This document shows, piece after piece, positions 1 through 64,000 of a stretch of 64,000 nt of DNA (within the stretch, counting starts at the first letter, position 1; every line of letters begins with the position of its first letter). This stretch comes from a virus, in IMG/VR virus record IMGVR_UViG_3300035182_002586, positions 62,001 to 126,000 of that record. One strand, 5' to 3'. The notes beneath the pieces were generated by a model. The model made no database searches. It was not told where the DNA came from and worked only from the letters and a program-made list of their open reading frames with translations. Both the position numbers and the translations under genes were made by a program.

Positions 1-1204
1 ACCCGCGCATACGGTCGGAGAAGCGCGCCCCGTGCTCCACCATGAAGCTGTTCGGGTCCGCGTGGAACCGCTGCCGGTAGTAGCTGATGGGGACCGACGG
101 GTTGATCTCCCACGTCGGCATCTGGAGAGCGAGCATGTTCTCGGACCCCTCTCCCCTCGACATCGCGAGGTTGAAGAGGTCGAAGAACTGTCCCTGCTTG
201 TTCAGGGGGGACGAGATGCAGATGATGCGGCTCTCGACCGGGTAGTCCGTCCCGTCGGGGTGCTTGAGCACCATCCCGTCCGGACCCTTCGGAGAGAAGG
301 TCGCTGCGGAGGGCTGGACCGCCTTGTATATCTCCTCGGCCGAGGACCCACCTTCGTCGATGAAGTGAGCCATCTCGTCGAGGATGATGACGATGTTGCC
401 CATACCACGGAGGCCCTTCGCGATACAGGGGCGGAACGTGACCCTGATCGAGGACTTGCCGTTGTAGCTGACGAACTTCCCGTCGGCGTGGCGGTTGTAC
501 GTGCCGAAGGTGTCGAGGTCGAACGGTGTCTGGAGGTCTACGAACGTCTTGTTGTCGGAGAGCTTGTACGGGTGGAAGTACTCGCACCGCGCCATGTGAT
601 TCGAGACTTCGCGGAAGAGAATCGCCGCCTGCTCCTTATCGGTAGCGACGCTGACGATCTGGATGGTGTTACCGTCCGGGAGACCGTAGTACTCCTGGGG
701 GTTGTACATATTCAAGAGGCGGTAGACCTCGTACGAGGCGAAGATCGACGAGAGCATGGTCTTGCCCCCGCGACGCCCGATGGCGAGCACCAGCTCGCGT
801 CGTTCGTGGTCCTGCTCTCGGATGTTGCAGCGTCCCTCGTCATAGAGGTGCCGCAGGTACTCCACCTCCGTGAAACGCCCTACGAGGTTCTCACGGAACA
901 TGTCCCAGATCTCGATCGTCTTCTCCTTGTCATCGAGAGGGATGTGGTAGTAGAGCTTCACAATGAAGCGCTGGACTGGATAGAGCTTCCGATCCAGACC
1001 CCACTTGGACTCGATGTAGTCGATGACTGAGAAGATCTTGGGCTTCTTCGGCTGCGCCTGTCCTGTTGGGACGGGCATCATGGACGCGAGGTAGTCGTCG
1101 ACCTGAGGATCCTCGGTCCCGGTCCTCTCTGCTTCGACTTTGGCTTCTTGTGCGGCTTGGCGGAATAGCCCCGCCATCCCGCTGCCGCGTTTCGTGGCTG
1201 CCAT
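1..1204 (-). CDS. terL: Phage terminase large subunit, C-terminus beyond the window
   Basis: ATP-driven DNA-packaging motor and headful nuclease of tailed phages. About 401 residues are visible from ATG at 1204. The Walker A motif GRRGGKT is at residues 143-149 and the Walker B run VIILDE near 272-277, followed by M-A-H as in phage terminases. The nuclease domain lies off the left edge. It is the last visible gene of the minus-strand virion block, 11 nt after a candidate small subunit. The family assignment is secure; the closest lineage is unknown. Confidence 0.93.
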   Translation of the reverse strand, partial: MAATKRGSGMAGLFRQAAQEAKVEAERTGTEDPQVDDYLASMMPVPTGQAQPKKPKIFSVIDYIESKWGLDRKLYPVQRFIVKLYYHIPLDDKEKTIEIWDMFRENLVGRFTEVEYLRHLYDEGRCNIREQDHERRELVLAIGRRGGKTMLSSIFASYEVYRLLNMYNPQEYYGLPDGNTIQIVSVATDKEQAAILFREVSNHMARCEYFHPYKLSDNKTFVDLQTPFDLDTFGTYNRHADGKFVSYNGKSSIRVTFRPCIAKGLRGMGNIVIILDEMAHFIDEGGSSAEEIYKAVQPSAATFSPKGPDGMVLKHPDGTDYPVESRIICISSPLNKQGQFFDLFNLAMSRGEGSENMLALQMPTWEINPSVPISYYRQRFHADPNSFMVEHGARFSDRMRG

Positions 1205-1215
1205 TCAGGATCCGA

Positions 1216-1923
1216 TCAGCGCTTCGCGAGTTGCACCGAGGCGCGTTCCTCCCACCCCTCCAGCTTCGTCATGAGACGGTTGGTGAGGAGGTCGAGTTCT
1301 TCGGTCTTGAGGACTTCGCCTGCGACGGCCAGGACTGACTGCACCCACAGCTTGAAGACCGCCTGGAACTTCTCGCTGTGCAGGTCGAGAAGGTCACCAC
1401 CGAGCTTCTTGATCTCCAGCTCGATGTTCGCGATCTTCGTCAGGGCGTCGATGCGGCGCGTCGAGATCTGCGCGGTGTCCTTGCCGAGCTTCTCGTTCTC
1501 GATGCGCTGGAACTGGAGAGCCGCCGACTCCTTGGCGACTTCTGCCTTCACGAGATGCAGGATCTCCGCTGAGTCCGCCTTGCCGAGGGCAGCCCGCAGG
1601 ATCGGGTCGTTCTGAACGAACTTCTGCTTCTCGTTCGACATCTCCGCGTGGTATTCGAGGTCCGATGTCGTCGGCATCCTCTCGACCTTGCGCGGCCGCC
1701 CACGCTGGCGCGTCACCTTGAGGTCGTTCTTCCCCGTTCGCGGCGCTGCGTGCACCGGAAGAAGACGAAGCACGTTGCCCTCACGGTCATCCGAACCGCC
1801 TTCGGCCTCCCCGGACTCGCCGATCGGGTCTGCGTCGTCGACATCTTGCCCCTCGCCTTCATCGGCGGTGGCCTCGTCGATCACTCGCTCCAGCTCGTCG
1901 TCATGTTCCGCAGACATGCTCAT
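1216..1923 (-). CDS. AT-hook protein, candidate terminase small subunit
   Basis: 235 residues. The first 60 are strongly acidic, followed by an AT-hook-like basic patch (RQRGRPRK, about residues 73-80) and then a helical, charged region to the end. Small terminase subunits bind DNA and usually sit just upstream of the large subunit, as here. The position and basic patch are seen; the role is inferred. Its start overlaps the preceding stop (ATGA). Confidence 0.5.
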   Translation of the reverse strand: MSMSAEHDDELERVIDEATADEGEGQDVDDADPIGESGEAEGGSDDREGNVLRLLPVHAAPRTGKNDLKVTRQRGRPRKVERMPTTSDLEYHAEMSNEKQKFVQNDPILRAALGKADSAEILHLVKAEVAKESAALQFQRIENEKLGKDTAQISTRRIDALTKIANIELEIKKLGGDLLDLHSEKFQAVFKLWVQSVLAVAGEVLKTEELDLLTNRLMTKLEGWEERASVQLAKR

Positions 1924-2324
1924 TTCTCCTTGACGCCGACTGCTTTGGCGCCACCCCCACCCTGCGTCTCGATGAGATACTGAGAGAGGTTGCTCACAGC
2001 GTCGTACCCCTTGTCCTTGGGGATCTGCTTGTCCAGCGCGTGTGAGAGGTCCTCGCCCGTTTCGACGAGGTTCCGCACTCCCGTGTGCCGGGGTTTCGCG
2101 AGAAACACGTCCTCAGGCCGGACATCGCGACGAGACGGATCGACCGTCTCGTCGGTGGTCTCCACCTGCTTGCCGTTCTCCTTGATGATGTCCTTCGCGA
2201 TCCCCTTCGCGGGGTTCACGGTCTTGACCTCGCGCTTCACGTCCTTGCGCATGTTGGGCGCACGAGGCTTGGCCGCCTCCACCTGGAAGCGAGCAGCGAC
2301 GCGAAGTGCGAGGCTCGTTACCAC
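1920..2324 (-). CDS. Virion-block protein with N-terminal RVAARF tag
   Basis: 134 residues from GTG at 2324, preceded by GGAAG seven bases away. Residues 5-13 read LALRVAARF, a tag also found at the N-terminus of the proteins at 23097-24029 and 62276-62902. The rest is polar and lysine-rich with no fold I recognise. It lies between the candidate small terminase and other virion-type genes. The function is unknown; a tagged virion component is one possibility. Confidence 0.6.
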   Translation of the reverse strand: MVTSLALRVAARFQVEAAKPRAPNMRKDVKREVKTVNPAKGIAKDIIKENGKQVETTDETVDPSRRDVRPEDVFLAKPRHTGVRNLVETGEDLSHALDKQIPKDKGYDAVSNLSQYLIETQGGGGAKAVGVKEK

Positions 2325-23096: not shown

Positions 23097-24029
23097 CTAG
23101 AGGACCGAAACACCCCGGAACTTCTTCAAGTGCTCCGGGATCTCGGGCTTCAGCTCCGGAGGCGCCCCCGACATCACCGCCTCGAAGTTCTCCAACACTC
23201 CGGGCTTGGCCATCGAGGTCATCCCGAAGTTGGAAAGGGCGAACAGCTCGGCGAACGATTCCCCGTCGTTGATGCTGTACTTCGTCGTGTGCCACTCGGC
23301 CCGGTCGAAGTCCACCTTGAGGTGGTGTTTCGCCTCGTATCTATGACCAAGCTCGTGGGTCACCACGTAGCTGAAGCCACCGTAGCCCGACCCGGCCCGC
23401 TCGATGCGCCCGCCAACCGTCGCGCGGATCCAGAGGATGTCCCCCTCCCGCCCGTACTTCCCGCTCGCCGTCCCACGGAAGTCCTTGGGCCCCGCCAGGT
23501 GGACTTTGATCCCACCGGAGAGCGCTCCTCGGTGCCACCCCTTCAAGCCGGCGAAGATGCCCTCCATCTCCGCGATCATGGCGTCCAGCTTCTCATCGTT
23601 GACGCCGACCATGTTGACGTAGGTGTTACCCCCGACCTTCTTCTCTCGGGTGAGAGCCTTCGCACCCCCCTCCACCGAAGAGAACGCCGACACCCAGGCG
23701 GGGACCAACGCCTTCATTCGCTGGTCTTCCCACAGCGAGCGAATCGAGTTTGTCAGGGCGCCAGGAAGGTAGTGCTCGTAGTACTCTACGTCCCTCTCGA
23801 TGGAACGATAGAACCGGTCCAGCTCTTCCTTCTCCCGCTTCATCCCCTTGGGCGTGTAGCGCGTCTGGAAGTGGAAGTTGTGCACGATCCACTTTGCGAA
23901 CTCCTGAAGCTCGTGCTTCGGAGGCTTCTCCGGGTCGTAGGACAGCAACTTGTCGACCTTCGACACGAAGTCGTGTTCGAGAGACGCTGCCTGGAAGCGC
24001 CGCGCCACCTTGATCGCGAGAGGGTCCAT
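23097..24029 (-). CDS. HExxH metalloprotease-like protein with RVAxRF-type N-terminal tag
   Basis: 310 residues from ATG 24029. Residues 5-13 (A-I-K-V-A-R-R-F-Q) match the tag seen in two other proteins. A helical middle is followed by V-V-T-H-E-L-G-H (H225, E226, H229) and a downstream G-E-S-F-A-E-L-F-A-L, which could supply the third zinc ligand, as in gluzincin-type proteases. It may be a virion maturation or ejected protease; this is inference. No ribosome site is evident. Confidence 0.75.
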   Translation of the reverse strand: MDPLAIKVARRFQAASLEHDFVSKVDKLLSYDPEKPPKHELQEFAKWIVHNFHFQTRYTPKGMKREKEELDRFYRSIERDVEYYEHYLPGALTNSIRSLWEDQRMKALVPAWVSAFSSVEGGAKALTREKKVGGNTYVNMVGVNDEKLDAMIAEMEGIFAGLKGWHRGALSGGIKVHLAGPKDFRGTASGKYGREGDILWIRATVGGRIERAGSGYGGFSYVVTHELGHRYEAKHHLKVDFDRAEWHTTKYSINDGESFAELFALSNFGMTSMAKPGVLENFEAVMSGAPPELKPEIPEHLKKFRGVSVL

Positions 24030-27304: not shown

Positions 27305-27775
27305 TCACTTCTTCAAGCCTGCGATCGCGGTGTGGAAGAGCTGGATGGCGAGCGTCCCGTGGCCCTTCATGTGGGGCGTCTCCCAGTTCTTCGGGTCGGG
27401 GAGCTTCATCGCGTCGGTGATGAGGGCGATGGTCGCCCCAAGGTCGTTCGCGAGGCGGTGGTGGTCGACCTGACGGCCTTCGAGCCAGAGGTTGAACGGG
27501 CCGCGCCAGCTCTTGCTCTGCTGGTCGATCTTGCGGGCGAGCTTGAAGAGTTGCCGGCCCATCTTCTCCAGCTTGGGATCGACGGGATCTTCCTGAAGGT
27601 CGGCCATCGTCGAGCCGACGTTCTCCGCCGTCTTGACGAACTCCTCCATCGCGTCCCACCCGTTCGAGAGGGCTTCCTTCACGGGGTCGCCGTGCGCGGA
27701 AGGACGTGAGAGAGCCGTACGCTGGTCGTACGAATAGCGCGCGGTCGAGGGGCGGTGGTCGTAGGAGTAGGACAT
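27305..27775 (-). CDS. Helical protein with repeated SYD(H/Q)R N-terminus
   Basis: 156 residues from ATG 27775, with GAGGGAG six bases upstream. The N-terminus carries Y-S-Y-D-H-R and, ten residues on, Y-S-Y-D-Q-R. The same Y-S-Y-D-H-R opens the protein at 63262. The remainder is helical, with no motif I can assign. Confidence 0.6.
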   Translation of the reverse strand: MSYSYDHRPSTARYSYDQRTALSRPSAHGDPVKEALSNGWDAMEEFVKTAENVGSTMADLQEDPVDPKLEKMGRQLFKLARKIDQQSKSWRGPFNLWLEGRQVDHHRLANDLGATIALITDAMKLPDPKNWETPHMKGHGTLAIQLFHTAIAGLKK

Positions 27776-44206: not shown

Positions 44207-44388
44207 TAGGAAGGGGGACACTACACGTGGACCGCGCTCCCTCGGGGGTTTGGGTCCTCGTGACGGCTGGCCGCACCTTCGGGTTTGGGTTGGCCGCGGA
44301 CGATCGCTAAGGCGCCGTGGGTTTGGAAGCCAGTCCGGGCTTCGCACCAGCGGTAGGACCGACCCGAAACGTTTCACGGAGGACCCCC

Positions 44389-46107
44389 ATGAAGGTCGAA
44401 GCACGTCTCACGTATGGACAGATCCGTCACGACCAGCCCAAGGACGCCCACCTCGTCCTCTCCCTGACCGCGCCCCCGCTCGCCGAAGAGACCAAGCGCC
44501 CGCCGATCTGCGTGGTCGCAGCCATCGACGTGTCGCCCTCGATGGAGGGCCCGAAGCTCGCCTACGCGAAGCAGTCGGCCATCAAGATGGTCGACCACCT
44601 CCAGCCCGGGGACTACTTCGGGCTCGTGGACTTCGCGCAGAGCGCGAGGCTCGTGATCAAGCCGCAGAAGGTGACGACCGCGTACAAGGACGAAGCGAAG
44701 CGGCAGATCGGCGGGCTCAAGGTCCGGGGCGCCACGAACATCGCGGACGCTCTTCTCGTCTCCCTCGACGCGGCGAACCGAATGGACCTCGGGGCCGAGG
44801 TCATCACCCGCTGCATCCTCTTCACCGACGGGGACGCCAACACCGGGGTCGCCATCACGCCGAAGGCCATCATCGAGCTGCTCTCGAAGAACCTCGGGAT
44901 CGCGACCGTCAGCGCCTTCGGGTACGGCGAAGACGTGAAACAGGAGCTTCTCGCGGACATCGCGAAGGTGGGCAAGGCGAACTACGCCTTCGTCAAGAAC
45001 CCGGACGACGCCCTCAGCGCCTTCGGTAAGGAACTCGGCGGACTGGTCTCCACGTGGGCGACGGGCATCACGGTCGAACTCGCGCCCTCGGCGGACGAGC
45101 ACAGCTTCCGGGCCATCGTCTCCGACGTGGAGGCCGAGGAGGACGTGGCCGGGCACATGACGATCAAGATCCCGGACCTCCTGGCGGAGGAGACGCGGCA
45201 CATCGTCCTCGGGGTGAACCTCGCCCCGCAGAAGGCCGTGGGCCCGCGTGCCGTCAACGTCTTCGAGGCGAAGATCGCCTACGACGTGATCGGAACGGAC
45301 GGGCGCAAGGAGCGCAAGACCATCGAAGCCAAGGCGAAGGTCCAGTTCGTCAAGGCGGGGGACGAGCAGAAGACCCCCACGAAGACGGTCGACGAGATCG
45401 TCGCGCAGGCGCAGATCGTCCGTGCACAGATCGAGGCCGAGCAGGCGGCACAGCAGGGCGACTTCAAGACGGCCGGGGCGGTCTTCCAGAAGACGTCCAA
45501 GAGCCTCCAGGACCGCGGGCACGCGGACCTCGGGAGCGTCGTCAGTCACCTCCACGGGATGTACGCCGACTCGAACTCGTACCGCACCACGTCCGGCAAC
45601 CGCGTCGGCATGCGCACCGCGATGACTCGCGCCGTGGGGGCGTCCGGGCTCGACAGGGACGACGAGGCCCTGCTCAGCTCGGCGCGCTACAACATGTCGA
45701 ACTCGTCGCAGACCTCGATGGTCTCCAGCTTCACCGGGGACACGCCCCCGCCTCCGGCAATCCACGGCGGGACCGCCCTGGCTCCCGTGGCGACCCTCAT
45801 CGCCGCTCCCTCGTGGGTCGGGGGTGTGGCTCCTGCGCAGCCCTCCGCCGGGTGGGTCCAGCCTGCGGGCGGGGTCAGCATCCAGGACCTCCAGAACGCG
45901 ATGGGCGTCGTTCCGTTCAACGGGATGCCGCCGCACCGTCCCGGGTACACGGTCCCCCGCTCCGCCGACGCGCAGCAGCTCCAGGAAGCCGCAGCCGAGG
46001 CGCTGCGGAGGATCGACGCCGACAAGAAAGCCAAGGAAGAGAAGCCGGCCCCGTCGTCGAAGGGTCGCAAGCCCCTCAAGCAGACGAAGAGCCCGACTCG
46101 CTGGTAA
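44389..46107 (+). CDS. von Willebrand A domain protein
   Basis: 572 residues from ATG 44389 (GGAGGA six bases upstream). MIDAS metal site: D47-V-S-P-S51, Thr in R-G-A-T-N, and Asp in F-T-D-G-D. A beta domain (about 225-320), a helical part and a Pro/Ala-rich disordered end with basic tail follow. vWA domains bind protein partners through a metal ion. A second vWA gene lies at 50661. Ends in TAA, rare here. Confidence 0.85.
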   Translation: MKVEARLTYGQIRHDQPKDAHLVLSLTAPPLAEETKRPPICVVAAIDVSPSMEGPKLAYAKQSAIKMVDHLQPGDYFGLVDFAQSARLVIKPQKVTTAYKDEAKRQIGGLKVRGATNIADALLVSLDAANRMDLGAEVITRCILFTDGDANTGVAITPKAIIELLSKNLGIATVSAFGYGEDVKQELLADIAKVGKANYAFVKNPDDALSAFGKELGGLVSTWATGITVELAPSADEHSFRAIVSDVEAEEDVAGHMTIKIPDLLAEETRHIVLGVNLAPQKAVGPRAVNVFEAKIAYDVIGTDGRKERKTIEAKAKVQFVKAGDEQKTPTKTVDEIVAQAQIVRAQIEAEQAAQQGDFKTAGAVFQKTSKSLQDRGHADLGSVVSHLHGMYADSNSYRTTSGNRVGMRTAMTRAVGASGLDRDDEALLSSARYNMSNSSQTSMVSSFTGDTPPPPAIHGGTALAPVATLIAAPSWVGGVAPAQPSAGWVQPAGGVSIQDLQNAMGVVPFNGMPPHRPGYTVPRSADAQQLQEAAAEALRRIDADKKAKEEKPAPSSKGRKPLKQTKSPTRW

Positions 46108-49095: not shown

Positions 49096-50529
49096 TCACT
49101 CCGGGAGCTTGAACGCCGAGCCCAAACCCACGTCTTCGAGCTTCACCCCGAGGTCGATCCCACGCTCGTCGAGCATGGCGAGGATGCGGTGGGCCAGCTC
49201 CGGGTGCTGGACCATGACTTCTTTGAGCATCCGTTTCTTCGCGGCCTTGCCCGGCTGGCTCGTGATCTCCAGCACGAGACCCTTCGGGGTGCGGTAGTCG
49301 GTGGGCTTCGGGGCGAGCCTCTGCATGCGGTCCAGCATCGGCATCAGCTCGCTCGCGACGACGCGCATGTCCTCGTCGCGGATGGCGCGGATCATCTGCC
49401 AGATCCCCGCCGTGTACTTGAAGTCGAGGAAGCGCGGGTACCAGGTGCGCACCCCCGGCGGGAAGTGCTCCATCATGGCGCCGTGGCTGTGCTCCAGGTT
49501 GTTGGCCCGGTCCACCGCGTGGATGGCCGCTTTGCCGCTGGCCGACTGGAGGTTGTGGTAGGAGCTGATGGCTTCCATCCAGCCATCTCGGTCCGAGTCA
49601 CTGCCATAGCGGCTCTCCAGCTCGCGGATGGCATCGGGGATCGAGTGGATGTCGCGCTGGAAGTTGACCGTCACCTCAGTGCCGTGCACCTGGAACTTGA
49701 ACGAGTAGGGGACCTTCTCGGCTTTCCCATACTCGTTGAACGCCTTGGTGAAGCGGTCGATGTTACCAGGGAGCCACTCCTTGAAGAACCAGTCCTTGGG
49801 CTCCTCCGCGGGCCTCATCGGCTTCGCTGCGGGCGGTGTGTGTACGAGCTGAGCTGCCTGCGGGAGCTGTTGGAGAACGCGTGTGTCGAGGATCTTCGTG
49901 AACCAGACGGTCCCGTCGAACTCGAACCCCAGGTCGCGCAGCTTGGTGCGGTTCGTGTAGGTCAGGTTCGACTTGGGGATCTCATAGACGTGGCGGGACG
50001 AGTTGAAGGTGATGGGCATCTGCTCCATCTCCGACATCGCCGTCTTCGTGTGGTTCTTGACCCAATCCTGCCAGACGACGCGGACGACCTTCTGGCCGAG
50101 GGCGTCGATGCGGTCGAGCTTGAGGAACTTGGTGGCTTCGGCCGGCACGAACTCGGACGGTGGCTTCGGCTTGCTCGTCAGCATGGACGGAATGGCCTCC
50201 ACCCAGTCCCCGAGGGCCTCTTGCAGGGCCTTCATGGCCTTCGACTGCTGCGTGAGGTTCGCGCGGTTCAGGAAGACGTAGCCGAGCCACTCGGCGAACC
50301 GGCGCGCATACTCCGTCGCCAACGAGGAGGCGAACATCTTGACTCGGCTGTCGTTCGTGTCCGACGCGAGGTAGTCGAACACGTAGGTCGCGTGGCAGAT
50401 GTCGTAGGATGAGAACGTCCCCATGCTCGACGCGAGGGCGGGAAGCATGGGGGCCACGTCCTCGGTCGGATCGATGCCCCCGGCCTGACGGAGCTTCCAA
50501 AGGGCGGAGGAGGGGGAGATCGGCGCCAT
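49096..50529 (-). CDS. Large unknown protein of phage type
   Basis: 477 residues from ATG 50529 (AGGGA seven bases upstream); an in-frame ATG 50580 has no good site. Two domains: 1-215 helical with a R-D-L-G-F-E-F-D-G-T-V-W-F hairpin after it, and 255-420 with A-V-D-R-A-N-N-L-E-H-S-H-G. No transmembrane segment. No function recognised. Confidence 0.6.
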   Translation of the reverse strand: MAPISPSSALWKLRQAGGIDPTEDVAPMLPALASSMGTFSSYDICHATYVFDYLASDTNDSRVKMFASSLATEYARRFAEWLGYVFLNRANLTQQSKAMKALQEALGDWVEAIPSMLTSKPKPPSEFVPAEATKFLKLDRIDALGQKVVRVVWQDWVKNHTKTAMSEMEQMPITFNSSRHVYEIPKSNLTYTNRTKLRDLGFEFDGTVWFTKILDTRVLQQLPQAAQLVHTPPAAKPMRPAEEPKDWFFKEWLPGNIDRFTKAFNEYGKAEKVPYSFKFQVHGTEVTVNFQRDIHSIPDAIRELESRYGSDSDRDGWMEAISSYHNLQSASGKAAIHAVDRANNLEHSHGAMMEHFPPGVRTWYPRFLDFKYTAGIWQMIRAIRDEDMRVVASELMPMLDRMQRLAPKPTDYRTPKGLVLEITSQPGKAAKKRMLKEVMVQHPELAHRILAMLDERGIDLGVKLEDVGLGSAFKLPE

Positions 50530-50626
50530 CTTGCTGTCCCTGTCGTACAACAAGAAGCGCAGAGGGGGTGGACCGGACATACCCTGTCCGACCCCCGCGT
50601 TTCAGGTCGTTCGGGAGCCTACCGCC

Positions 50627-50660: not shown

Positions 50661-51530
50661 ATGTCGAACGCAACCAGCTACAAGGTGGCCGAGTCACTGT
50701 ACCTCGTCCGCCAGGAAGTCGCGAAGGGGAACCAGGTCGCGAAGCCGGTCGAGATCCCGACCAACCACATCCTGGAGATCGACTGCTCAGGGAGCATGTC
50801 ATGGGATCTCCCCAAGATCCGCGAGCAGGTCAAGAAGAAGCTGGTGAAGCTGCTCAAGGAGGGGGACACCCTCTCCATCGTCTGGTTCAGCGGGCGTGGA
50901 CAGTGCGGGGTTCTCCTGGAAGGTGAGCCGGTCGCGACGCTGGCGGACCTCAACAACGTGAACGCTGCGGTCGATCGCTGGCTCAAGCCGGTCGGCATGA
51001 CGGGCTTCAAGGAGCCGCTGGAGCTGCTCCCGGGCCTGATCGAGCGTCTCGCGAAGAAGTACCCCAAGAACGTCAACTCGCTGATGTTCCTCTCGGACGG
51101 CTGCGACAACCAGTGGTCGCGCCCCGACGTGCTCAAGGCGATGGAGAAGGCGGCCGGCGGGCTCTCAGCCACCACGGTCGTCGAGTACGGCTACTACGCG
51201 GATCGTCCACTGCTCACGGCGATGGCCGAGCGCGCGGGTGGGAGCCTCATCCACGCGGCGGGGTTCGACAAGTTCGAGCCCATCCTCGAAGCCTCGCTCA
51301 AGAAACAGGTCGTCGGCGGCAAGCGCGTCGAGATCGACGTGAAGGGTGACGTCATCGGCGGCTTCGTCTGGATGGAGGACAACGGCGACCTCGTGACCTA
51401 CGGGATCGCGGACGGCAAGGCGCACGTCGCCGAGCAGACGCAGGCGGTGTGGTACCTCTCGCCGACTCCTATGGGGAAGGTGGAGGGGAACCTGAGCCAG
51501 TTGGCGGAACAGGCGTCGAAGGCGGCTTGA
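50661..51530 (+). CDS. von Willebrand A domain protein
   Basis: 289 residues. MIDAS D41-C-S43-G-S45, Thr in G-M-T-G-F, Asp in F-L-S-D-G-C-D. After the vWA fold, a beta domain of about 80 residues. It is shorter than the vWA protein at 44389 and shares no tail with it. Partner unknown; in other systems vWA proteins pair with AAA ATPases, and a small ATPase lies at 42595. Confidence 0.83.
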   Translation: MSNATSYKVAESLYLVRQEVAKGNQVAKPVEIPTNHILEIDCSGSMSWDLPKIREQVKKKLVKLLKEGDTLSIVWFSGRGQCGVLLEGEPVATLADLNNVNAAVDRWLKPVGMTGFKEPLELLPGLIERLAKKYPKNVNSLMFLSDGCDNQWSRPDVLKAMEKAAGGLSATTVVEYGYYADRPLLTAMAERAGGSLIHAAGFDKFEPILEASLKKQVVGGKRVEIDVKGDVIGGFVWMEDNGDLVTYGIADGKAHVAEQTQAVWYLSPTPMGKVEGNLSQLAEQASKAA

Positions 51531-52074: not shown

Positions 52075-52080
52075 GGTGTA
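52075..52080 (+). promoter_or_regulatory. GGTGTA element of 52109
   Basis: 28 nt before ATG 52109, followed by TAAGAG. Confidence 0.5.
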
Positions 52081-52108
52081 TAAGAGATTTAGGAAAGCAA
52101 AGGTTCCC

Positions 52109-53596
52109 ATGCCCTCGAACGACCCCGTTTCCGCTGCTTACGCTGCTGTCTCGCTTTTCAGCGTTCGTGCGAAGCCCGAAGTGGTTCTCCCTCTGCTTGG
52201 TGCGTTGGGGGATAAGGCTCTCCTGGAGCGTTTCGGAGGGCTTTTCGGCAAGCAGAAGTACTCGGATTTCATGGCGGAGACGAAAGCCGCGTCGTTCGAC
52301 CCGAAGCTCCGTCTCATCAAGGGGTACGATCCGAACGCCCTGCCTCGGGACGACGCGTTCACCGTCCTCGACATGCTCCGCCTGCTCGCGTCCGACGAGG
52401 ACAACAAGGTCCTCCTCGACCACGAAGCGTTCAAGTACAGCCGCATCTCACGCGGGCGCGTCGACGCGTTCACCGTCCTCACGGCGGACGAGCAGGCGGA
52501 GGTCGAGCGCCTCACCGAGGAGCTGACCAAGGCCAAGAAGGATGCCAAGAAGGTCGCCGAGCTGAGCGCGAAGATCGCGGCCATCTCCAACAAGCCTGCG
52601 CCGCTCAAGTTCGAGGCGGACCCGGCGCCCGACGGCTACTCGGTCTCCAACCTCACGTACAACGAGGAGCACCCGAACGTCAGCCTGCTCGTCCGCAAGA
52701 CCGGTACGGTCGACATCTCAGGCCGTCTCCCGGCGGAGATCACCGGCGTCCCGGCCAAGTTCCCGACGTTCATCTTCCGCAACTACGCAGTGGTGAAGGA
52801 TGGGCTCGTCAACGTCGAGGTCCTCCCGACCAAGCTCTCAGCGGCGACGCTCGCGAAGCTCTTCGAGCTGCACAAGGCGGGGAAGTTCTCCGACGAGGTG
52901 GTGAAGTCGGACGGCAACGTCGTCCTCCTCAACTTCAAGTCGCTGCCGGTCATCAACCGCACGATGGTGAAGGCGACGTCGGCGAAGGCCCTCTTCGAGA
53001 ATGAGTGGGCGCTCACGCGCATCCAGGCCGAGCAGAAGGTCTACAAGTCGTTCGCCAAGGAGAAGTTCGGGACCAAGAAGTCCGCGGGCTTCGAGGAGAC
53101 GTACGGTAAGGCGGCGGCCGACTGGCTCAAGGAGCAGGGCTTCACCGACTACTCGGGCTTCTCGCCGAAGAGTGTCCAGGCCGAGTCGACCGACGTGTAC
53201 GTCGCCAAGGAGCTGTCGATCGTGATCAAGGGCTTCTCAGCGATCCCGAGCCTCAACGACTTCAAGAAGCAGGCGGCGAAGGGGAAGTTCACCCCGTCGG
53301 CGCAGCTCATGAAGGACGCGGCCGATGCCGTCGAGAAGTTCCTCGCTTCCGACGACTACAAGAACGGCGGCGACCCGGCGTTCGAGAAGTGGCTCAAGGA
53401 CAAGGACAAGGCGCTCGACAAGACGCGCCGCGCCCTCATCGCCAACAAGGCGCAGCAGATCTTCTGCGTGGTAGTAGGTCAGACGTGGCCGGTGGAGTTC
53501 GCGTCAATCGACGAAACGCAGTTGAAGATCACCACTCCGGAGGGTAACGTCCTGGAGTGCGAAGTGAAGATGCGAGATCGCGAGATCAAGATCTAA
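52109..53596 (+). CDS. Large Lys-rich protein of unknown function
   Basis: 495 residues from ATG 52109. Helical N-terminus, a short coiled coil (about 128-160), then a mixed alpha/beta body ending in a small beta domain (V-G-Q-T-W-P-V-E-F ... L-K-I-T-T-P-E-G). Very regular GC-rich codon use suggests good expression. No motif or family recognised. Ends in TAA. Confidence 0.65.
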   Translation: MPSNDPVSAAYAAVSLFSVRAKPEVVLPLLGALGDKALLERFGGLFGKQKYSDFMAETKAASFDPKLRLIKGYDPNALPRDDAFTVLDMLRLLASDEDNKVLLDHEAFKYSRISRGRVDAFTVLTADEQAEVERLTEELTKAKKDAKKVAELSAKIAAISNKPAPLKFEADPAPDGYSVSNLTYNEEHPNVSLLVRKTGTVDISGRLPAEITGVPAKFPTFIFRNYAVVKDGLVNVEVLPTKLSAATLAKLFELHKAGKFSDEVVKSDGNVVLLNFKSLPVINRTMVKATSAKALFENEWALTRIQAEQKVYKSFAKEKFGTKKSAGFEETYGKAAADWLKEQGFTDYSGFSPKSVQAESTDVYVAKELSIVIKGFSAIPSLNDFKKQAAKGKFTPSAQLMKDAADAVEKFLASDDYKNGGDPAFEKWLKDKDKALDKTRRALIANKAQQIFCVVVGQTWPVEFASIDETQLKITTPEGNVLECEVKMRDREIKI

Positions 53597-61253: not shown

Positions 61254-61327
61254 GCTCCCGTGGCCGAGTGGTTCAGGCGGGCGACTTTAAATCGCCGTCA
61301 ACGTGGGTTCGAGTCCCACCGGGGGCG
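61254..61327 (+). tRNA. tRNA with anticodon TTA (ochre-suppressor type), Tyr-like
   Basis: 74 nt without encoded CCA. Acceptor GCTCCCG/CGGGGGC (one G-T pair), TG, D-arm GCC/GGC with GAGTGG loop, anticodon stem GGCGA/TCGCC with loop CTTTAAA, short variable loop, T-arm GTGGG/CCCAC with TTCGAGT. U33 is followed by TTA, which reads UAA and by wobble possibly UAG. The loop equals the bacterial tRNA-Tyr loop with G34 changed to T. The amino acid is inferred, not known. Confidence 0.85.
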
Positions 61328-61830
61328 CTCCTCTTCAAGTGGTTGCGGACAGATGATTCGGCTACCCCAAGCTGTCTGACTACTTCACTCTTTGAGGTCT
61401 TTGCAATCAAGTCCAGAAGCTCCTCCATCGGAGGCCATGCGGCACGCTTAGCTCTAGGCTTTCGGTGCCCACACGAACGACACTGCACACTGGACTTGGC
61501 GATCGTAGTCCCGCACCGACAGGTCTTGTGTGTGGCCTTCGCGATGCTCCGCCCACAGAACGTTGCGGTCTGTGAGTCGCAGTTAGGACACAGAAACCTC
61601 AAGTTTTCTAGTCTGTGATCACGATTCACACCGTTGATATGGTCCAGCCGAAGCACGAGAGGTTTTCCTCCCCACTCGGGCCCAAGCTGACAGCCAACAC
61701 AGTGGGATGTGTCCAGGGCCAGGCGCGCGATAGCGTTGCGCACGTAGGCTGCCCCTCCACCAGAAGCAGAGGGTCGACCTAGAGCACGAAGAATTGCAGT
61801 GACACTAGCGTGCTCTCGCACAAGCACCAC
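61273..61830 (-). CDS. HNH endonuclease running antisense into the tRNA
   Basis: 185 residues from GTG 61830 (weak start). C-V-G-C, R-L-D-H-I-N-G and N-L-R-F-L-C-P-N-C form the HNH core, followed by C-R-C ... C-R-S-C and a helix-turn-helix (V-V-R-Q-L-G-V-A-E-S-S-V-R-N-H-L). The last 18 residues are the antisense of the tRNA, so the natural end was probably replaced on insertion next to the tRNA. Confidence 0.78.
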   Translation of the reverse strand: MVLVREHASVTAILRALGRPSASGGGAAYVRNAIARLALDTSHCVGCQLGPEWGGKPLVLRLDHINGVNRDHRLENLRFLCPNCDSQTATFCGRSIAKATHKTCRCGTTIAKSSVQCRSCGHRKPRAKRAAWPPMEELLDLIAKTSKSEVVRQLGVAESSVRNHLKRSAPGGTRTHVDGDLKSPA

Positions 61831-62275: not shown

Positions 62276-62902
62276 TCAGTGGTAGTCGTAGCGAAGACCG
62301 AGCTGATCCCACTCGTGCGTCAGCTCTTGCATCGTCATGTTCGCGGCCTTGGAGATGTTGTCCTTGAGCCAGCCGTAGAACAGGATGCCGTCCTTCTTGC
62401 TCACGGGTGAGTAGAGGGTGTCCTGACGGTAGCCGTGGGCCGCCTTGCCGGGCGCCTCGATGACGGTGCTGTTGGTCACGTGGAAGTCGTGCGGGCTCGC
62501 CTGGATGCGGACGATGGTGCCGTCCGGGAACTTCTTCTCCAGCTTGATGGTGGTCCCCGGCGGCTCGACGTCGATCCCACGGAGTTCCCGCTCGTGGGTC
62601 TCCATCAGCTCCGGGTGGTCCGCCTTGATCTTCTCCAGGTGTGACTTCGCCTGGTCGTAGTTCATGTGCAGGATGGAGGTGACCGCCTGCTTGAGGATCC
62701 GGTCCGCCATCTCGTCGTTGAGCGTGTGCGGCATCACCGTCAGCTCACGGACCTTCTTGCCCCGCTTGCCGGCATTCGTCATGTCGGTGATCCGAACGCT
62801 CCCGTGGAAGCGGTGGATCTTGAGGTGCTCGGTGAAGGCGTGTTGCCCCACGTCCAGGCTGGCGGCAAGGAACTTGGCAGCGACTCGGCGGGCGAGGTCC
62901 AT
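62276..62902 (-). CDS. Unknown protein with N-terminal LARRVAAKF tag
   Basis: 208 residues from ATG 62902. Residues 3-11 are the tag shared with 1920-2324 and 23097-24029. Beyond it, an alpha/beta body with no motif I know (P-D-G-T-I-V-R-I-Q-A-S-P-H-D-F). A GGTGTG variant lies just before the start. Confidence 0.6.
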   Translation of the reverse strand: MDLARRVAAKFLAASLDVGQHAFTEHLKIHRFHGSVRITDMTNAGKRGKKVRELTVMPHTLNDEMADRILKQAVTSILHMNYDQAKSHLEKIKADHPELMETHERELRGIDVEPPGTTIKLEKKFPDGTIVRIQASPHDFHVTNSTVIEAPGKAAHGYRQDTLYSPVSKKDGILFYGWLKDNISKAANMTMQELTHEWDQLGLRYDYH

Positions 62903-63261: not shown

Positions 63262-63600
63262 ATGGCCTACTCCTACGACCACCGGACCCGCACCGCTGCC
63301 TTCAACATCTCGAAGGTGGTCATGGACATCGACGTTGACCTCTACCCCGAGAAGCTCTCCTGGACCTCAAGTGGGAAGGTCCTCATGACGGGGGTGGCCG
63401 AGTTCGTTCTCCCCAACCGCAAGCACAAGAGCAAGCCCTACGAGCTGGAGACCTCCGAAGACGGTACGGTCCAGCAGTGCAAGTGCGAAGACCCTATGCA
63501 TCGACAGATGATCTGGATCGCCGCAGACAAGCGCAAGCGCGAGCTGGCCGAGCTGATCGAGGACCAGAAGCAGCGGGGCGGGCTCCGTCGCAAGCCCTGA
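63262..63600 (+). CDS. Unknown protein beginning AYSYDHR
   Basis: 112 residues from ATG 63262. The N-terminus repeats the Y-S-Y-D-H-R of the protein at 27305. Beta-rich middle, C-K-C near 76 and a charged C-terminal helix. Stops of this and the next gene form TGATCA. Confidence 0.6.
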   Translation: MAYSYDHRTRTAAFNISKVVMDIDVDLYPEKLSWTSSGKVLMTGVAEFVLPNRKHKSKPYELETSEDGTVQQCKCEDPMHRQMIWIAADKRKRELAELIEDQKQRGGLRRKP

Positions 63601-64000
63601 TCAAACCCGGTTGATGTAGCGGCTGACGACTCTGTGGGCGATCGTGGCGTTTTTCGGGCGCGTGCTGGCCTTGCCGAGCGCCTCTATCGCCTGCTGGAAG
63701 TCGTCCGGTACCTTCCACGCGTTCTCGTTGGGGAACCCGTGACCAACCCCGTACTGGTCTAGCAGGGCCCGGACTGTCTTCACGGAACGGTCGATCTGTG
63801 CGACTGCCTCCGCTTCGACTTTGCCCTTGAAGGGGGTGTAGAAGTCTTTGAACGAGATCACCTGCTGGTGGGCGTCGCTGTACTGCTCCGCGATGTCGAA
63901 GGGGATGGCCATCCCCTCGTTCGTGTAGAGGAGCGTCATGAGCTTCGCCGACTCGGCGTACAGCTTGATGAACATCGCCGTGTAGTCGTGGGCGGCTACG
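63601..64000 (-). CDS. Helical protein with C-terminal HRVVSRY tag, N-terminus beyond the window
   Basis: About 133 residues visible, frame open at the right edge; ATG 63975 is a possible internal start. Helical with aromatic loops. It ends I-A-H-R-V-V-S-R-Y-I-N-R-V, similar to the N-terminal tag of three other proteins but at the C-terminus. Confidence 0.6.
   Translation of the reverse strand, partial: VAAHDYTAMFIKLYAESAKLMTLLYTNEGMAIPFDIAEQYSDAHQQVISFKDFYTPFKGKVEAEAVAQIDRSVKTVRALLDQYGVGHGFPNENAWKVPDDFQQAIEALGKASTRPKNATIAHRVVSRYINRV

Follow-up and report, generated by a model that had tools for sequence, protein, structure and literature searches.

Exchangeable short peptides on unrelated proteins of a giant-phage clade: candidate capsid-targeting labels

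Short peptides that load unrelated cargo into a protein shell are known as the cargo-loading peptides of encapsulins and the encapsulation peptides of microcompartments, which are terminal and may stand at either end of the cargo. Among phages, the T4 prohead protease cuts at sites of the form [LI]xE. The internal proteins of T-even phages are diverse and only their CTS is conserved (PMC3012670). As described in the accounts cited, the T4 CTS is a short N-terminal peptide on diverse prohead-core proteins (IPI-III and Alt), some of them injected ADP-ribosyltransferases (PMC3012670, PMC5694885). Alt, an ADP-ribosyltransferase, is given as packaged and injected (PMC5512222) and as cleaved at both ends, at the sites ITE and LTE (PMC5694885). 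The propeptides on inner-head and ejection proteins of phiKZ-like giant phages (SPN3US gp45, gp47, gp53 and gp54) are likewise N-terminal, are cut by the prohead protease and are thought to target proteins to the head; in these accounts most are 111-254 residues long, two are 20 and 24, and they are not reported as one common peptide on unrelated bodies (PMC5694885, PMC10052503). Polyvalent proteins of phages and conjugative elements carry metallopeptidase and ADP-ribosyltransferase domains and are predicted, in the account cited, to be packaged and injected, with many domains fused in one protein (PMC5512222).

The peptides described here, termed labels 1, 2 and 3, recur on proteins of giant phages. 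As with the T4 CTS, a short N-terminal peptide is common to otherwise unrelated proteins, and it occurs in records with a prohead protease homolog (four of four), a major head protein match and a scaffold that is likely by its place and composition. Unlike the T4 CTS, the labels come in at least three exchangeable kinds of different sequence, are found also at C-termini and between domains, and are carried by many more cargo families. They lack the [LI]xE end, Ala being the commonest residue at position +8 (40 of 86 copies) and Glu occurring in 5 of 86. By analogy the labels may work like the T4 CTS, but, being of another sequence and having no [LI]xE end, they are not classed with it. At about 12-25 residues they are unlike most phiKZ-like propeptides, and a propeptide mostly longer than 100 residues and cut after a Glu-ending site (PMC10052503 and general background) was not seen. 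In contrast to polyvalent proteins, the effectors here are mostly separate proteins with a common label. Compared with the encapsulin and microcompartment peptides, the shell here would be the phage prohead. Searches of open-access papers for the label strings gave no phage paper printing these peptides, the lone match being an antibody paper. A search on capsid targeting and N-terminal motifs returned T4, SPN3US, P1 and other phage head papers, together with an evolution study, T4 vector papers and a Klebsiella phage paper.

Label 1 in the window, its record and its relatives

The window is a stretch of 64,000 nucleotides, bases 62001-126000 of the 528,957-base (529-kb) virus record IMGVR_UViG_3300035182_002586 (G+C 64%). 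Its large terminase subunit was used as query for finding relatives, and is 60% identical to that of G001 and G002 (IMG/VR records of 407 and 363 kb), 43% to that of LR745208.1 (W02, 485 kb) and 33% to that of Tunturiibacter phage Tunturi_5 (W01, 308.7 kb). For the capsid protein, identity is 83% with LR745208, 49% with Tunturi_5 and 39% with Bacillus phage G. An IMG/VR scan with the capsid protein alignment gave at least 558 confirmed relatives, the best 80 of which were taken as loci. The record is thus that of a phage with a capsid protein like those of Tunturi_5 and Bacillus phage G.

A first-pass annotation of the window had listed one recurring peptide at three N-termini and one C-terminus of unrelated proteins. 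All four copies were found in place: LALRVAARF, LAIKVARRF (listed as AIKVARRF) and LARRVAAKF at N-termini, and IAHRVVSRY near a C-terminus (Table 1). A scan for this motif, label 1, in every stop-to-stop frame of 50 codons or more, on either strand of the window, returned exactly these four places. In the 79 called genes of the window three copies are N-terminal, one is C-terminal and none is interior (Fisher p = 8e-4, terminal versus interior). Shuffling of the N-termini gave an expectation of 0.02 copies against the 3 observed, and none of 2000 shuffles reached 3; in this test the start of the gene at 23097 was placed by hand at 24029, which differs from the gene caller's.

Table 1. Features of the window, with positions counted from its first base
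Feature	Position	Strand	Label and terminus	Details
Terminase large subunit	1..1177	-	untagged	clipped by window edge; phrog_17415, 2.5e-13
134-aa protein	1920..2324	-	label 1, N-terminal (SLALRVAARFQVEA)	RVAARF codons 2286-2303; two genes upstream of terminase
HExxH metallopeptidase-like protein	23097..24029	-	label 1, N-terminal (PLAIKVARRFQAAS)	KVARRF codons 23994-24011
156-aa protein	27305..27775	-	label 2 twice, N-terminal (MSYSYDHRPSTARYSYDQRTA)	codons ~27753-27769 and ~27720-27736
Ortholog of a label-2 protein	49096..50580	-	worn N-terminus only (MSGPPPLRFLLYDRDSKMA)	49% over 451 aa to L216 in G005
208-aa protein	62276..62902	-	label 1, N-terminal (DLARRVAAKFLAAS)	RVAAKF codons 62870-62887
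112-aa protein	63262..63600	+	label 2, N-terminal (MAYSYDHRTRTAA)	codons ~63268-63284
Protein continuing past window end	63601..63999	-	label 1, C-terminal (IAHRVVSRYINRV)	RVVSRY codons 63616-63633

A degenerate DNA pattern for label 1 gave 19 matches in the whole record versus 9 for the reversed control. Twelve of them sit 3-9 codons past a start, in 11 genes, as N-terminal labels; one of these genes (L014/L015) has label 1 in tandem. Another match lies in the interior of the 1403-aa large head-module gene, and the remaining six are doubtful or accidental-looking (L013, L016 and L019 are isolated and chance-like). The annotation had proposed a genome-wide scan for the motif near protein ends and had taken a frequency equal to background as evidence against it; the scan and the controls bear the motif out. 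The bodies are indeed unrelated, one being an HExxH protein (L007), and two more tagged HExxH proteins (L009, L017) were found in the record. At record bases 52959-52976 on the minus strand (L003), RVAAKFLQ lies within a 347-aa frame with the usual start codon absent nearby, which is either a missed start or a fusion.

In the family of the 134-aa protein the strict motif is present in 38 of 47 members of the fetched loci, in a scan where one of two seed peptides contained label 1. The other nine have mostly worn forms such as RVAARHQ and RRVVQAY. A search of the named-phage collection gave no relative of this protein, and its sole structure model, from AlphaFold, is unusable (pLDDT 50). Pfam and PHROG searches with the 208-aa protein gave zero matches.

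The common form of label 1 in relatives is [LIV][AS]x[RK]V[AV]x[RK][FY]xxA. It is mostly N-terminal and at times C-terminal, and occurs also at fixed places inside the large head-module protein. With the degenerate pattern, matches versus control were 21 versus 15 in G001, 21 versus 8 in G002, 18 versus 11 in W02 and 8 versus 9 in Tunturi_5, from which label 1 seems to be missing; two shorter records gave 0 versus 3 and 3 versus 1. In the part of the 71 matches that was read, many in G001 and G002 and several in W02 are N-terminal labels. A stricter pattern gave 43 matches versus 7 for the reversed control in 11 further records of 231-513 kb. Thirty loci fetched from these records comprise 24 N-terminal and 2 C-terminal copies (L183, L187), 2 in the large head-module gene (L189, L206) and 2 accidental-looking short frames. 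Across 86 N-terminal copies, where the letters at 0, 1, 2, 4 and 5 were preset by the search pattern, the other positions show [LIV] at -3 (65), [AS] at -2 (53), A at 3 (44) and A at 8 (40). Conservation ends after +8, about 9 residues past the R.

Two further labels and exchange of labels on the same bodies

Another peptide that recurs at N-termini, YSYD[RH]R (label 2), is present in the window and in relatives, and a third, LRSKLIRLAHxNPxLRPxLLPLLKEA (label 3), was spotted on a body that bears label 1 or 2 elsewhere; both are additions to the first-pass annotation. The label-2 pattern gave 41 matches in 12 records versus 3 for the control, and label 2 is also found at C-termini (L209, L213, L229). 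In a blind motif discovery on the first 25 residues of 1146 genes in 250 body clusters, labels 1 and 2 topped all spaced four-residue patterns, with 12 clusters against 1 and 9 against 0 for N-terminal versus mid-protein stretches. Label 3 was counted 11 times in W02, 15, 12, 7 and 15 times in G016-G019 and once in G001, and was not found in the window's own record or in three other tested records. Reading of 37 distinct copies placed 31 at N-termini, 2 at C-termini and 4 internally. In record G016, frames of up to 1243 aa (L418, L292) string together bodies that are separate tagged proteins elsewhere, with label 3 before each, an arrangement resembling a cargo polyprotein.

Removal of the label from 115 tagged proteins (90 with label 1 and 25 with label 2) left 72 body clusters. 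This set was gathered mostly by label search, is uninformative on frequency, and takes in fragments of the large head-module protein as well as a few likely chance frames (e.g. L019, L020). In six families orthologous bodies bear different labels. L178 (YSYDHRKTA-YRPRVVMPRDFYLP) and L156 (RVAERYVAA-YRGRITLPRSSYLP) are 56% identical; L134 and L105 are 62% identical over 365 residues, and L214 and L128 42%. A weak sixth family pairs L110 with L174 (38% over 77 residues). Several of these families have Ala at the junction of label and body, L066 has Thr there, and the labels align only loosely to each other.

The end that bears the label is exchanged as well. Topoisomerase IB (PF01028, best 1e-28) bears label 1 N-terminally in L186, L200 and L205 and C-terminally in relatives from G001 and G002 (L058, L062). 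In this genome (L002/L028) both of its ends carry the label. The relation of L058 was judged by reading the common C-terminal region.

Of 323 homologs of the phrog_37844 body 80 were kept, and these carry label 1 in 6 cases, label 2 in 1 and, on reading, label 3 in 2; some of the others have worn label-1 forms and most are without a label. The automated classing knew labels 1 and 2 only, so that L292 and L300, scored 'none', were found to carry label 3 on reading. The metallopeptidase family was often unclassifiable, the match starting far inside, and several members scored 'tag1' or 'tag2' are loose matches. In some families close to half of the relatives of tagged bodies are without a recognisable label.

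Presence of the phrog_37844 extension was compared with that of the capsid gene. In 24 phrog_37844 records tested, a capsid protein of this type was found in 9 and was absent from 15. Among the capsid-less records, 10 of 15 have a placeable upstream ATG, the farthest lying within 10 residues of the body anchor, and five have no upstream ATG by ungapped anchor. In 15 records with this capsid protein the farthest upstream ATG is at least 13 residues from the anchor (four anchors are uncertain). A nearest-ATG test on 11 versus 6 records gave p = 0.008. The body appears to be almost without N-terminal extension where this capsid is absent, a correlation in which absence of the capsid gene from a fragment weighs little. 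The capsid gene was found in six of six tested records bearing label-3 or metallopeptidase bodies. L290, L293 and L302 come from records with this capsid type; their phrog_37844 bodies are preceded by N-terminal extensions that differ from labels 1-3 (e.g. MRRFAKIVDRVVVGSS) and are perhaps a further label.

The head gene module and the putative labelled cargo

With the head maturation protease of Tunturi_5 as query, one homolog was found in each of four records, with a PHROG head maturation protease match; the capsid gene of the module has a PHROG major head protein match. This phage, G001 and G002 share one gene order, which runs from a large protein through three or four small ones to the protease, and on to a Q/A-rich protein, a 206-209-aa protein and the capsid protein. 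The Q/A-rich protein is a likely scaffold, named from its place and composition, with no family match.

In many phages the large head-module protein (about 860-1400 aa) bears label 1 near residue 70 and a second time near residues 630-1100. In 750 distinct genes, 18 of 21 interior label-1 copies lie in proteins of at least 850 aa. A label-3-like sequence is at or near its C-terminus in 13 loci, many members ending otherwise, and a search of G001 with the label-3 peptide had this protein as sole match (E = 3.7e-4). Its role rests on gene order because it has no family or PDB match (the PDB profile search gave nothing useful).

The motif [KR]xA[ASN] lies upstream of 10 of the 17 label-1 copies that are C-terminal or internal, versus 89 of 2252 background stretches; a p-value for this is untrustworthy because the motif was picked with these sequences already in view and several of the copies are homologous. 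The same motif precedes the label-3-like end in 13 of 13 large head-module proteins. Several head proteins start M..KFA. Record G021 (497 kb) has a full capsid gene and, in addition, three capsid-like matches that are partial, one of which contains a TGA in frame.

Pfam searches with 88 tagged proteins gave Peptidase_Mx (4), topoisomerase IB (2), one each of ART-PolyVal, DRAT and DUF3990, and DnaJ and others; the majority match nothing. DUF3990 is ADP-ribosyltransferase-like. Tagged HExxH proteins occur in this genome, G001, G002, W02 and others. The AlphaFold model of the metallopeptidase (pLDDT 61) gave weak zinc peptidase matches in Foldseek against PDB (best E = 0.022, TM about 0.2), and its profile gave nothing useful against PDB sequences. 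A search of the genome for the Mu-F family gave no result.

The window has other features of note. ARAGORN places a tRNA at 61254-61328 (+); its anticodon, UUA, would pair with the stop codon UAA, and it is a possible suppressor tRNA. Two nearby genes, at 50661-51530 and 52076-53596, each correspond to one half of phrog_2426, to which a further gene at 44317-46107 has a weak match.

Alternative explanations and proposed function

The first-pass annotation had read label 1 as a sorting signal, for example into the capsid or a phage compartment. That it is a sorting signal is strongly supported by the 72 body clusters, by the swaps between orthologs, by the use of either end and by one body that is almost without N-terminal extension in records lacking this capsid protein. 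The motif is short and a few copies in the record look like chance, but the controls, the enrichment and the absence of detectable similarity between the 72 clusters make chance recurrence or common ancestry of the proteins extremely improbable. An element of gene expression or stability, either a conserved N-terminal coding sequence that aids translation or a degron, would suit the position of most copies 3-10 codons past the start. This is very doubtful given the C-terminal and internal copies, the conservation of the peptides while codons vary, and the occurrence of three peptides on one body.

The destination is a separate matter. Jumbo phages can build intracellular compartments (a phage nucleus or replication body), for which short import or docking peptides would suit. 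Yet the window's sigma factor, exonuclease, clamp loader, primase and methyltransferase are all untagged, and a protein of the head cluster has label 1 inside and a label-3-like sequence at its end. The RNA polymerase family PF00623 was found in none of four records, in a search whose controls were without any nucleus-forming phage. The compartment named by the annotation is disfavoured and appears unlikely, as the identified replication and transcription proteins of the window carry no label. Docking to the tail, the baseplate, an assembly site at the inner membrane, DNA or some such virion or assembly partner, rather than to the capsid core, is about equally improbable. A peptide that is short and basic might attach to DNA or membrane; however, label 2 is not basic-amphipathic like label 1 and swaps with it on the same bodies, and the label is present in a protein encoded amid prohead genes. 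The capsid is the favoured destination, as we infer from the head-module protein that holds label 1 and often a label-3-like end, and from cargo kinds that match those that T4 packages or that are predicted by others to be injected.

Recurrence, position at termini and junctions, modularity, interchange of label and of end, the link with capsid type and presence in the head module are all read from sequence, and they suggest that the peptides are quite probably capsid-targeting (cargo-loading) labels of a giant-phage clade with one common capsid type. In this proposal a short, probably helical peptide would bind the assembling prohead core. Many unrelated proteins have it, mostly at the N-terminus and in fewer cases at the C-terminus or between domains. 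The labelled proteins would thus end up inside the head and be injected, along with the DNA, into the next cell. The three or more peptides (labels 1, as RVAxR[FY], 2, as YSYDxR, and 3) would be interchangeable and serve one purpose. The prohead protease would probably cut off the label at Ala on its body-side edge. Ala at +8, Ala at several swap junctions and [KR]xA[ASN] hint at such cleavage; against it, the site was chosen post hoc and is absent from 7 of the 17 C-terminal or internal copies, and the L066 junction is Thr. Labels at both ends would fit with the cutting of T4 Alt at both ends.

A broader proposal, to which we give somewhat better than even chances, is a general cargo-loading code across the clade. 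Several synonymous, end-independent addresses could put any protein into the head, roughly a dozen or more swappable effectors per genome, to be read by one prohead core and cut by the prohead protease. If the labels do target the capsid, sequence alone would be enough to recognise by them which proteins of these phages are packaged and probably injected, dozens of unannotated families among them, and the same peptides could serve to bring chosen proteins into very large capsids. Bodies whose label differs between phages would amount to a natural experiment on the recruitment of virion cargo, a process detailed so far mainly for T4.
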